From: a virus
Reading direction: 5' to 3' (one strand)
DNA: 64,000 bases
Virus record (IMG/VR): IMGVR_UViG_3300030385_002649
Location: 186,001-250,000 of that record
Positions 30,864 to 49,168 of the stretch are shown in pieces. The notes beneath the pieces were generated by a model that was not told the DNA's origin, made no database searches, and saw nothing but the letters and a program-made list of their open reading frames with translations. The number at the start of each line of letters is the position of its first letter. Position 1 is the first letter of the stretch. The position numbers and the translations under genes were made by a program.

Positions 30864-30974
30864 ATGCCTGAAATACTTCTAAATAGAACTGTGGTAATTT
30901 AAGTGGCAGTTAGCCATATCCAATATGAATGCCAATCTCGTTCCATCATCCCACCAAACTTAAGTTTCAACATT

Positions 30975-31049
30975 GCACTTGACAGGAATCGAACCCGCAG
31001 CCTCCAGAATCCTTACATCATGGCGCTCTACCATTTGAGCTACAAGTGC
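30975..31049 (-). tRNA. tRNA-like, oversized anticodon arm
   Basis: Acceptor GCACTTG/CAAGTGC, D-arm GCTC..GAGC and T-arm GCGGG-TTCGATT-CCTGT are intact. The stretch between D-arm and T-arm is about three bases too long and no regular 5+7+5 anticodon arm forms, so the anticodon is uncertain. Confidence 0.6.
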
Positions 31050-31053
31050 TTAT

Positions 31054-31122
31054 GCGGTTTCCTGGTCTTGCACCAAGTGATAAACCTTCCTGCATTTCGA
31101 ATGCAAGTGCTCACTAAACCGC
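31054..31122 (-). tRNA. tRNA-like without D-arm
   Basis: A perfect acceptor GCGGTTT/AAACCGC, an anticodon arm TTGCA-TTCGAAA-TGCAG (anticodon CGA) and a T-arm CTTGG-TGCAAGA-CCAGG are visible, but only about ten bases lie between acceptor and anticodon arm, too few for a D-arm. Confidence 0.45.
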
Positions 31123-31127
31123 TTATT

Positions 31128-31281
31128 CGGAGGGTAGGATTCGAACCTACACCCCCCAGTTTATAATAACTGGTACCCCGACAGCTGCGCGCGCCGTCAC
31201 AGTAAGATTCAATCGTTACTCGCTACTGTGGCCACAGTGCTTTCTCTAAATGAACCATCCTGCTCCGTTGAGCTTCCTCCG
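31128..31281 (-). tRNA. Interrupted tRNA-like gene with ~90-base insert
   Basis: The 5' part has CGGAGG followed by a short D-arm GCTC-AACG-GAGC. The 3' part has a T-arm GTAGG-TTCGAAT-CCTAC and CCTCCG, which pairs with the 5' acceptor. In between lies a much longer region than normal, with a palindrome ACTGTGGCCACAGT and a hairpin CCAGT...ACTGG. It could be an intron-like insertion or a fusion of tRNA remnants. Confidence 0.4.
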
Positions 31282-31283
31282 AT

Positions 31284-31396
31284 GCGCGGGGCTGGAGTTT
31301 AACCAACGACCTCTGCTCCTCGCCCGCTCGTGGTGCGGGCGCCTGGGATCTCGCCAGGAACGGTAAACACAGCGCTCTACACTGAGCTACCCGCGC
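31284..31396 (-). tRNA. tRNA-like with ~40-base insert
   Basis: Acceptor GCGCGGG/CCCGCGC is perfect, the D-arm is GCTC..GAGC and the T-arm GTTGG-TTAAACT-CCAGC. Between D-arm and T-arm two extra hairpins occur, CCTGG-CGAGATC-CCAGG and GCCCGC-ACCACGA-GCGGGC. If they are an insert, the remaining loop suggests anticodon TAC (Val), which is uncertain. Confidence 0.45.
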
Positions 31397-31401
31397 TAAA
31401 T

Positions 31402-31493
31402 GGATCGGGCTGGATTCGCACCAACAATCTGCCATTATTTAAAATGACATGCCGCACTAATGGGAGGCAGAGCCTCCTCTTGGCTTCCGATCC
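31402..31493 (-). tRNA. tRNA-like with hairpin in D-loop
   Basis: Acceptor GGATCGG/CCGATCC and T-arm GTTGG-TGCGAAT-CCAGC are intact. A perfect hairpin GGAGGC-TCT-GCCTCC sits inside what would be the D-loop, and an anticodon-like arm GTCAT...ATGGC with an eight-base loop follows. Anticodon not assigned. Confidence 0.45.
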
Positions 31494-31499
31494 TTTGTT

Positions 31500-31820
31500 T
31501 TATTCAGATACCATAAATTCAGCCATTTCTGGTTTCACCCATTCCTTAAGATCGGCCTCGTCCAAACTTTTCGGTCTAGGCCAGAAGTTTTTAACATCAG
31601 TGTTGGGAGAAAAATGTTGTTTTCTAGTAATGATAGACCTCAAGACGCACAACCTTGTGAATCGCGCAGAGGCGCTCCACCATTCAGCCTTAGCCTGCCA
31701 ATACTCTTTCCTCTTAGAAGGAACATTGTAATGCTTATCCCTTGTTTTACTCTTAGAAGCTCTAATCTGAATGATCAGGCTCTTCATCTCTTCTCTCAGT
31801 TTTTTCCAATTCAAGCTCAT
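31500..31820 (-). CDS. Basic hypothetical protein
   Basis: A 106-residue, Lys/Arg- and Trp-rich, mostly helical protein starting MSLNWKKLREEM. No family recognised. It follows the PTH2-like region by nine bases, probably in one transcript. Confidence 0.5.
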   Translation of the reverse strand: MSLNWKKLREEMKSLIIQIRASKSKTRDKHYNVPSKRKEYWQAKAEWWSASARFTRLCVLRSIITRKQHFSPNTDVKNFWPRPKSLDEADLKEWVKPEMAEFMVSE

Positions 31821-43724: not shown

Positions 43725-43796
43725 TCGAGAGAAAAACAAGGTGAGTGTGTTGTCAAATTGCATAAATGTGAAGTAACTCATCTTTTCACTTCTCGA
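43725..43796 (-). ncRNA. P1-P2-pseudoknot element, copy a (no tRNA)
   Basis: The shortest copy (72 bases) of a repeated structured RNA. On the minus strand: outer stem TCGAGA/TCTCGA, hairpin GAAGTGA-AAAGATGAG-TTACTTC, then about 25 bases without a tRNA, a CTCACC tract that can pair with GATGAG of the loop (one mismatch nearby), a U-rich run and the closing strand. It shows that the scaffold exists without tRNA cargo. Confidence 0.6.
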
Positions 43797-44010: not shown

Positions 44011-44014
44011 AAAA

Positions 44015-44155
44015 TGTGAGAGAAAAACGAGAAAAGGTGTTTTTCTAAAAAAACTCGCCCATGTAGTGGACGAGGTTGGATTCGAACCAACATAAATAGA
44101 TTATTAGTCTAGTGTGTTACCATTTGGAAGTATCTCTTCTCAATCACTTCTCACA
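44015..44155 (-). ncRNA. P1-P2-pseudoknot element, copy b (permuted tRNA)
   Basis: Outer stem TGTGAGA/TCTCACA, hairpin GAAGTGATTGAG...ATACTTC whose loop GAGAAGAG pairs fully with CTTTTCTC near the 3' end, then the U-run TTTTTCTC. Between hairpin and tract lies a tRNA in permuted order (next entry). Confidence 0.6.
44054..44126 (-). tRNA. Circularly permuted tRNA in copy b
   Basis: On the minus strand the 3' part comes first: a D-loop-like AAATGGTAACAC, an anticodon arm TAGA-CTAATAA-TCTA, the T-arm GTTGG-TTCGAAT-CCAAC and the acceptor strand CTCGTCC. After a seven-base linker follows GGGCGAG, which pairs with that acceptor strand at all seven positions (one G-T). No pairing partner lies upstream, where the 5' strand should be. 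The breakpoint would be in the D-loop; the D-stem is not well formed. Confidence 0.5.
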
Positions 44156-44159
44156 TAAC

Positions 44160-44230
44160 GGGCAGAGAGGGATTTGAACCCCCGACTCTTGGTTCTTCAA
44201 ACCAATGTTCTTCCGCTGAACTACCTGCCC
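44160..44230 (-). tRNA. tRNA-Phe(GAA)
   Basis: Acceptor GGGCAGG/CTGCCC, anticodon arm TTGGT-TTGAAGA-ACCAA, T-loop TTCAAAT. Confidence 0.87.
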
Positions 44231-44287
44231 AAATCAAATTGTCAATACACTAAAGACGGAGAAACCGGGCATGCCTGTCACTTTCTT

Positions 44288-46888: not shown

Positions 46889-46892
46889 AAAA

Positions 46893-47032
46893 TATACAAG
46901 AGAAAAAGCAAAAGAGAAATGTTTCCTGCTCTACCGCTGAGCTATTTCGCCACGGATGGCGAAAGTAGGATTTGAACCCACGACCTGGCACTTAAATGAT
47001 GTGAAGTAACTCTTTCTATCACTTCTTGTATA
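46893..47032 (-). ncRNA. P1-P2-pseudoknot element, copy c (permuted tRNA)
   Basis: Outer stem TATACAAGA/TCTTGTATA (nine pairs), hairpin GAAGTGA-TAGAAAGAG-TTACTTC, loop GAAAGAG able to pair with CTCTTTT or CTTTTTC in the 3' pyrimidine region, and TTTTTCTC before the closing strand. The cargo is the clearest permuted tRNA of the window. Confidence 0.65.
46925..47003 (-). tRNA. Circularly permuted tRNA in copy c
   Basis: Read on the minus strand, 47003 to 46958 is a 3' half: anticodon-arm remainder ...AAGTGCC, variable loop, T-arm GTGGG-TTCAAAT-CCTAC and acceptor TTTCGCC. After ATCCGT, 46951 to 46925 is a 5' half: GGCGAAA (seven perfect pairs with TTTCGCC), TA, D-arm GCTCAGCGGTAGAGC, A, GG. Joining GG to CAC gives a perfect stem GGCAC/GTGCC around a loop with CAT (nine bases, two too many). 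Anticodon CAU is likely but not certain. Confidence 0.6.
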
Positions 47033-47033
47033 C

Positions 47034-47090
47034 TGCCGTTGGAAGAGTCGAACTCCCCACTAGGTATCCCCAGTGCCCACTTTAACGGCA
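47034..47090 (-). tRNA. 57-base mini tRNA-like structure
   Basis: Acceptor TGCCGTT/AACGGCA is perfect and the T-arm is GGGAG-TTCGACT-CTTCC. Between them only one hairpin fits (ACTGGG-GATA-CCTAGT) with no normal D- or anticodon arm. Either a tRNA remnant or a tRNA mimic. Confidence 0.4.
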
Positions 47091-47933: not shown

Positions 47934-48063
47934 TCGTGAGGAGAAAAGTGAAAAAGTGTTTGCAAAGTCTGCGGTTTTGACGCCACAACCTTCAGTTTTT
48001 CAGACTGACGCTCTACATTGAGCTAAAATTTTGGAAGTAACTCTTTCGGTCACTTCCTCACGA
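47934..48063 (-). ncRNA. P1-P2-pseudoknot element, copy d (tRNA-Phe cargo)
   Basis: Outer stem TCGTGAGG/CCTCACGA, hairpin GAAGTGA-CCGAAAGAG-TTACTTC, loop GAAAGAG pairing with CTTTTTC near the 3' end, then a pyrimidine run. The cargo is an intact, non-permuted tRNA. Confidence 0.6.
47963..48033 (-). tRNA. tRNA-Phe(GAA) inside element d
   Basis: D-arm GCTC..GAGC, anticodon arm TCAGT-CTGAAAA-ACTGA and a T-stem TGTGG/CCGCA with an eight-base loop. The acceptor CAAAATT/GACTTTG has one mismatch and a G-T pair. A second Phe tRNA besides 44160-44230. Confidence 0.65.
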
Positions 48064-49041: not shown

Positions 49042-49168
49042 TGATGAGAGAACTCTTGAAAAACCGTTAGTGTCAATTATGGGACTTGAACCCACAACAT
49101 GCAGCTTTGAAGGCTATTACTCTACCATTGAGTTAAATTGAAGTAAGTCTTTCTATCACTTCTCATCA
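49042..49168 (-). ncRNA. P1-P2-pseudoknot element, copy e (tRNA-UCA cargo)
   Basis: Outer stem TGATGAGA/TCTCATCA, hairpin GAAGTGA-TAGAAAGAC-TTACTTC, loop GAAAGAC pairing with GTTTTTC near the 3' end (the terminal pair changed to C-G relative to other copies). The cargo is an intact tRNA with anticodon UCA. Confidence 0.6.
49072..49142 (-). tRNA. tRNA with anticodon TCA (opal suppressor or Trp-UGA)
   Basis: D-arm ACTC-AATGGTA-GAGT, anticodon arm ATAGC-CTTCAAA-GCTGC (first pair mismatched), T-arm GTGGG-TTCAAGT-CCCAT. The acceptor TTCAATT pairs with AATTGAC except at the first position and overlaps the scaffold hairpin. Anticodon UCA would read UGA. Confidence 0.65.

Follow-up and report, generated by a model that had tools for sequence, protein, structure and literature searches.

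A putative YrlA-like Y RNA with a tRNA-like module attached through the D-loop in a Ro60-encoding giant phage

Organization of the locus

The 64-kb window analysed here, that is, the whole stretch of DNA under study, is part of a 370,804-bp viral record and contains a tRNA array, within which lie five copies of a common scaffold, all on the minus strand (GAAGTGA at 49162, 48056, 47025, 44150, and 43792). The element of main interest, copy b, and its four sister elements are listed below. Read along the minus strand from 44156 to 44014, the parts of copy b follow each other in the order given; ATACTTC is followed by CAAATGGTAACACA, after which comes the anticodon-like arm, and GTTTTTC separates the 3′ strands of the inner helix (P2) and the basal helix (P1).

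Copy b
44014–44156, minus strand: whole Y RNA-like element (descriptor match with P1 6/6 and P2 7/7, P1 extending to 8 bp; RNAfold)
44149–44156, minus strand: P1, 5′ strand, ATGTGAGA (8/8 pairing with 44021–44014)
44145–44148, minus strand: AGTG, the conserved WGYG motif following P1 (common to Y RNAs of phage G, Atuin, Kradal, and L057)
44134–44141, minus strand: P2, 5′ strand, GAGAAGAG (8/8 pairing with 44036–44029 by direct reading, 7/7 core in the descriptor)
44127–44133, minus strand: ATACTTC, the conserved WUACUUC Y RNA signature (TACTTC is invariant in 25 aligned phage Y RNAs, an alignment that had been selected for TACTTC)
44117–44125, minus strand: D-loop-like AAATGGTAA, where the tRNA-like module opens (direct reading; L278 is arranged alike)
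44096–44112, minus strand: anticodon-arm-like hairpin CTAGA-CTAATAA-TCTAT, triplet AAT, 4/5 pairs (cmscan alignment, RNAfold)
44075–44091, minus strand: T-arm GTTGG-TTCGAAT-CCAAC (cmscan, RNAfold)
44054–44074, minus strand: acceptor-like hairpin CTCGTCC-ACTACAT-GGGCGAG (7/7 pairs, chance 0.5%; also a terminator-like score)
44037–44053, minus strand: TTTTTTTAGAAAAACAC, a U-A hairpin at the place of the canonical YrlA D-arm (RNAfold; a different hairpin stands there in L278)
44029–44036, minus strand: P2, 3′ strand, CTTTTCTC (descriptor and direct reading)
44014–44021, minus strand: P1, 3′ strand, TCTCACAT (pairing with the P1 5′ strand)

Sister elements
49042–49168, minus strand: Y RNA-like element with a colinear tRNA module (called tRNA-SeC TCA, 49070–49142; scaffold descriptor, ARAGORN call)
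47934–48063, minus strand: element with a colinear Phe(GAA)-like module (47963–48032; RF00005, 48.3 bits; scaffold descriptor)
46891–47034, minus strand: copy c, with a permuted module in canonical YrlA order (RF02553, 31.6 bits, full length 1–114)
43725–43796, minus strand: element with a short insert and no tRNA-like module (scaffold descriptor)

The array has several further peculiarities. The first three bases of the predicted tRNA-SeC(TCA) are the conserved UUC of the surrounding scaffold, and this segment may mimic a tRNA instead of being a suppressor or selenocysteine tRNA. The Phe(GAA)-like module at 47963–48032, located within a Y RNA scaffold, is a second tRNA of this kind and has an abnormal T-loop (GUCAAAA); an ordinary tRNA-Phe is found at 44158–44231. 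The segment 48065–48145, which directly precedes the Y RNA at 48063, scores slightly under the tRNA threshold (28.9 bits) and is possibly a divergent tRNA or a further mimic. At 30974–31500, one tRNA has an anticodon loop of 8 bases (taag), and ARAGORN leaves several tRNA-like stretches of this region uncalled.

The tRNA-like module of copy b

The original prediction described copy b as a permuted tRNA opened in the D-loop, with the T-arm and CTCGTCC placed first and followed by a seven-base linker and GGGCGAG. This order was confirmed on the minus strand, where CTCGTCC (44074–44068) and GGGCGAG (44060–44054) flank the linker ACTACAT (44067–44061) and pair at all seven positions, including one G-T pair. 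Of random stretches of the window, 0.54% contain a 7/7 partner for CTCGTCC with a loop of 3–20. We likewise place the opening in the D-loop, because the D-loop-like stretch and the anticodon-like arm stand 5′ of the T-arm. The D-stem, which had been regarded as weak, is absent altogether: TTTT is found where GTGT is required. The acceptor hairpin is followed by U7-AG-A5 and not by a D-arm. The Rfam tRNA model aligns with copy b over model positions 8–63 at 23.8 bits (gathering score 29), and ARAGORN calls no tRNA at copy b. The RNAfold structure (−33.9 kcal/mol, z = −2.28) recovers the basal stem, the T-arm, and the acceptor hairpin.

If copy b were a functional permuted tRNA (Ile-like, with anticodon AAT), it would be cut at the scaffold, ligated in the D-loop, and freed of the 7-base linker by RNases P and Z. 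The complete acceptor stem over a short linker, the good T-arm, and the anticodon-like arm are in line with such a pathway, which is contradicted by the D-stem that cannot form, the anticodon stem with one pair missing, the AAT anticodon itself, and the scaffold, which also occurs on elements without any tRNA and tracks Ro60. Moreover, RtcB and RNA_ligase-family (Rnl2-type) genes were not detected in the 370,804-bp record, a result to be read with the reservation that the host could supply the machinery; a search of the record for Rnl1 was uninformative, as its control failed too. We consider this explanation extremely improbable.

The acceptor-like hairpin together with TTTTTTT ranks with the strongest terminator-like sites in this region. 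A G+C-rich hairpin followed by a U-tract is the pattern of an intrinsic terminator, whose occurrence in copy b may be fortuitous, and it could stop transcription within the element. One could thus imagine a terminator behind a decayed colinear tRNA, with the 3′ acceptor strand doubling as the first arm of the terminator hairpin; the best colinear 5′ partner of CTCGTCC upstream, AGAAGAG, would then be the degraded 5′ acceptor strand, although it forms only 5/7 pairs. This scenario leaves P1, P2, and UACUUC on both sides unexplained, and the same hairpin occurs in L278 without a U-tract and, in YrlA order, in dozens of phages. It appears highly unlikely.

A common scaffold in five copies

The original prediction assumed that the permuted tRNAs of the window are carried by a common scaffold; the common scaffold itself is confirmed. 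The scaffold was described as P1(6/6)-WGYG-P2(6/7 or better)-TACTTC-insert-P2′-P1′, a descriptor refined on the window copies and their relatives. It has exactly five matches in the 64-kb window, compared with 0.13 expected per 64 kb from dinucleotide shuffles, and none in the remaining ~307 kb of the record. The sequences of P1 (6–11 bp) and P2 differ from copy to copy with pairing kept, so that the basal helices covary among the five copies. The scaffold also accepts modules opened at different positions, as had been proposed: the module is opened in the anticodon stem in copy c and in the D-loop in copy b, and two copies carry a colinear tRNA joined at the acceptor end.

Relation to YrlA and to the Ro60 of the phage

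A pattern derived from the window copies alone found one true relative, present in three contigs (L056, L057, and L061), with P1 and P2 paired and different in sequence. This element is located directly upstream of a TROVE/Ro60-like ORF, beside an Rfam YrlA match. The record under study has a Ro60 of its own: a TROVE match at 151582–152184 (E = 4e-10, Pfam E = 2.7e-13) falls in an ORF of 549 aa at about 150.9–152.5 kb of the record, ~78 kb from copy b and not adjacent to it. The protein matches solved TROVE-domain proteins (9l5y/9kop) in sequence; of the homologues found, gp540 of Bacillus phage G is the nearest (37.7% identity). A tblastn search with this protein matched 92 INPHARED records, and the same query gave no match in the viral contig collection.

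Within the record, copy c gives the best YrlA match (RF02553, 31.6 bits, E = 2e-5 to 6e-4, positions 1–114, gathering score 69). In this alignment, the scaffold helices coincide with the two basal helices of YrlA, and the module has the order T-arm, acceptor hairpin, D-arm. RF02553 gives no match on copy b, and its gathering score of 69 was reached by no Y RNA of the Ro60 phages tested. Copy b nevertheless shares with YrlA a basal stem and an inner helix (both 8/8), AGTG followed by ATACTTC, a T-arm followed by a closed acceptor hairpin, and a Ro60 gene in the same genome; we regard it as a Y RNA variant rather than a canonical YrlA because no D-arm follows the acceptor hairpin.

The scaffold is the putative Ro60-binding stem of a YrlA-type bacterial Y RNA, and copy b is very probably one of five YrlA-like Y RNA genes of a Ro60-encoding giant phage and not a tRNA gene. 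Since the module of YrlA is normally arranged in this permuted order, neither splicing nor circularization is needed to account for it. Of the permuted-tRNA prediction, the tRNA-like parts in permuted order stand; their interpretation as a tRNA gene is incorrect or lacks support.

Two other structures were considered for the scaffold and dropped, namely a pseudoknot, in which the loop of a GAAGUGA/UUACUUC hairpin pairs downstream, and a self-splicing ribozyme or intron of a new kind. The YrlA alignment gives a simple nested stem with the same helices, and a Ro60 was found.

Copy b could also be a degenerating Y RNA module, in which Ro60 binding may persist while the effector end has lost the D-arm and its function as a tRNA mimic. 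The missing D-stem, the U-A-rich stretch in its stead, and the low tRNA score fit this possibility, and copy b may be partially degenerate. However, the module still has its D-loop, anticodon-like arm, T-arm, and acceptor hairpin, and L278 has the same layout, which makes decay a possible but rather unlikely explanation.

Occurrence among Ro60 phages

Phage G, Atuin, Kradal, and metagenomic phages have the signature WGYG ... P2 ... UUACUUC beside their Ro60 genes. UUACUUC with a T-loop after it is found close to Ro60 in phage G, Atuin, Kradal, Neville, CcrColossus, HGTV-1, and L057, frequently in more than one copy and with or without a tRNA-like insert; multiple copies of the scaffold stand beside Ro60 in phage G, Atuin, Kradal, and L057. 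Y RNAs with a short insert are common in Ro60 phages, and dozens of phages have the acceptor hairpin in canonical YrlA order. After the last scan, the descriptor had 136 distinct matches in 48 loci, 34 of which contain at least two. The scaffold elements comprise 86 distinct P1 and 118 distinct P2 helices, and the positions just outside the required six of P1 are paired in 84%, 69%, and 53% of the elements, compared to ~37.5% by chance.

TROVE/Ro60 was found in 22 of 24 contigs selected by the signature and in none of 18 other viral contigs; the two signature contigs without TROVE measure 7.8 and 40.7 kb. The negative control originally planned consisted of 24 contigs matching UUACUUC plus a colinear tRNA, 13 of which carry TROVE. 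This set was unusable as a control because many of its members turned out to have colinear tRNAs in genuine Y scaffolds. A mechanical scaffold criterion separated these 24 contigs only weakly by TROVE (8/10 vs. 5/14, p = 0.047), and the 18 other contigs were therefore taken as the control. MAFFT alignments of the Y RNAs were poor on the 3′ side.

Searches with the neighbouring proteins of copy b (131 aa, 103 aa, and GMP synthase) found no near relatives of the phage in the collections, and the exact copy b sequence has no match in the viral contig collection. A scan of the genome contig collection yielded 52 stretches, none with the scaffold on reading by eye.

The UACUUC scaffold is absent from Listeria phage P100. 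Three tandem CAGCAA(T/A)TACTA elements are located on the minus strand of this phage (33180–33440), just upstream of gp165 (DUF2828/DUF7788), with basal stems GGAATC/GATTCC, GAGAGC/GCTCTC, and GGAAGC/GCTTCC. They are candidate Y-like RNAs and perhaps kin to the three abundant non-coding RNAs of phage CKA15 (PMC12282133). The tRNA region of P100 (34072–34623, minus strand) contains a ROOL RNA match of 86 bits (gathering score 99.1).

Ways of attaching the tRNA-like module

In the canonical YrlA modules of phages, P2 is joined via the anticodon-stem side. Joining at the acceptor end, with a colinear tRNA in the Y stem, is seen in the window at 49168–49042 and 48063–47934, in L182, and, on reading, in L169, L183, L187, L208, L214, L215, and others; the number of contigs with colinear modules is provisional, as the mechanical scaffold test discriminates weakly. 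In several acceptor-joined cases, the ARAGORN tRNA call starts where TTACTTC ends. Such calls, all in TROVE phages, are L208:4774–4849, L183:1356–1428, L214:5889–5961, and L169:5447–5521, and these calls probably represent Y RNA modules that have been annotated as tRNA genes.

Joining through the D-loop was found in copy b and at one other locus only, L278, a 115,610-bp contig with TROVE present. The module of copy b runs from the D-loop through the anticodon-like arm and the T-arm to the closed acceptor hairpin; that of L278 consists of GGTAAACAC, an anticodon-like arm, a T-arm, and TCGGCTG-GCAA-CAGCCGG, followed by one more hairpin. The acceptor hairpin is of the same type in both, and a GUG/CAC D-stem is possible in L278, whereas none is possible in copy b.

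While phage Y RNAs as such are already known, the differing attachment points of the tRNA look-alike among copies seem to be undescribed. These differing opening points are the interesting part of the locus, and in this respect the structural insight of the original prediction was correct.

Possible roles of the elements

The sequence of copy b shows ends that pair as P1, a WGYG internal loop and P2 leading to UACUUC, and a tRNA-like insert held by P2. We propose that the P1/P2/UACUUC stem binds the Ro60 ring of the phage and that the tRNA-like module forms an effector end, tethering or gating a further partner, which in Deinococcus is PNPase. No splicing would be needed; the folded mimic would be attached to the Y stem via the D-loop and not via the usual anticodon side. 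Alternatively, the module could be a decoy for tRNA-handling enzymes, such as anticodon nucleases during infection, a use by the phage that is suggested by analogy with a proposal for Salmonella YrlA (PMC7790460). A more speculative and rather improbable scenario is that Ro60 carries tRNA modules grafted on one Y stem at the anticodon side, the acceptor end, or the D-loop, the colinear ones being complete tRNAs for Ro60 to hold or deliver, which would provide the phage with tRNAs tethered to Ro60 or with decoys that match anticodon nucleases of the host.

The signature P1-WGYG-P2-UUACUUC ... P2′-P1′ detects phage Y RNAs that Rfam misses, and it shows that Ro60 phages possess sets of Y RNAs. 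Given at least three modes of attachment of tRNA-mimic modules to the Ro60 stem, some phage “tRNA genes” may in reality be Y RNA modules, among them the UCA “selenocysteine” tRNA of the window. The role of phage Ro60 and its Y RNAs thus becomes a directly testable question.

Comparison with known systems

The permuted tRNA genes of red and green algae and some archaea give rise to real tRNAs via a splicing endonuclease, a ligase, and a circular intermediate. Copy b resembles them in that the 3′ part precedes the 5′ part and a short linker lies between the acceptor strands.

YrlA combines a basal stem for Rsr (Ro60) with tRNA-like D, T, and acceptor arms, is modified by DusA and TruB, and tethers PNPase (PMC8394870); the Salmonella YrlA structure is given as PDB 6CU1 in a passage of the same article. 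Copy b is similar to YrlA (RF02553) in its basal stem formed from paired ends, its inner helix, its permuted T-arm and closed acceptor hairpin, and a Ro60/Rsr in the same genome. It differs in that the D-loop and the anticodon-like arm come before the T-arm and no D-arm comes after the acceptor hairpin, and also in scoring below what Rfam detects, in its large distance from the Ro60 gene, and in being one of five copies.

Among phages, TROVE has been reported in some jumbo phages (PMC7824862), and mycobacteriophage Y RNAs are cited in a passage of PMC12282133. The same article proposes that very abundant RNAs of Listeria phage CKA15 are Y RNAs; the related phage P100 is the one without the UACUUC scaffold. 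The Y RNAs near Ro-like genes of phage G, Atuin, Kradal, and CcrColossus share with copy b the multiple copies, UUACUUC, tRNA clusters nearby, and a Ro60 in the genome, but their modules are mostly missing or in YrlA order, whereas the module of copy b appears to be a D-loop graft.
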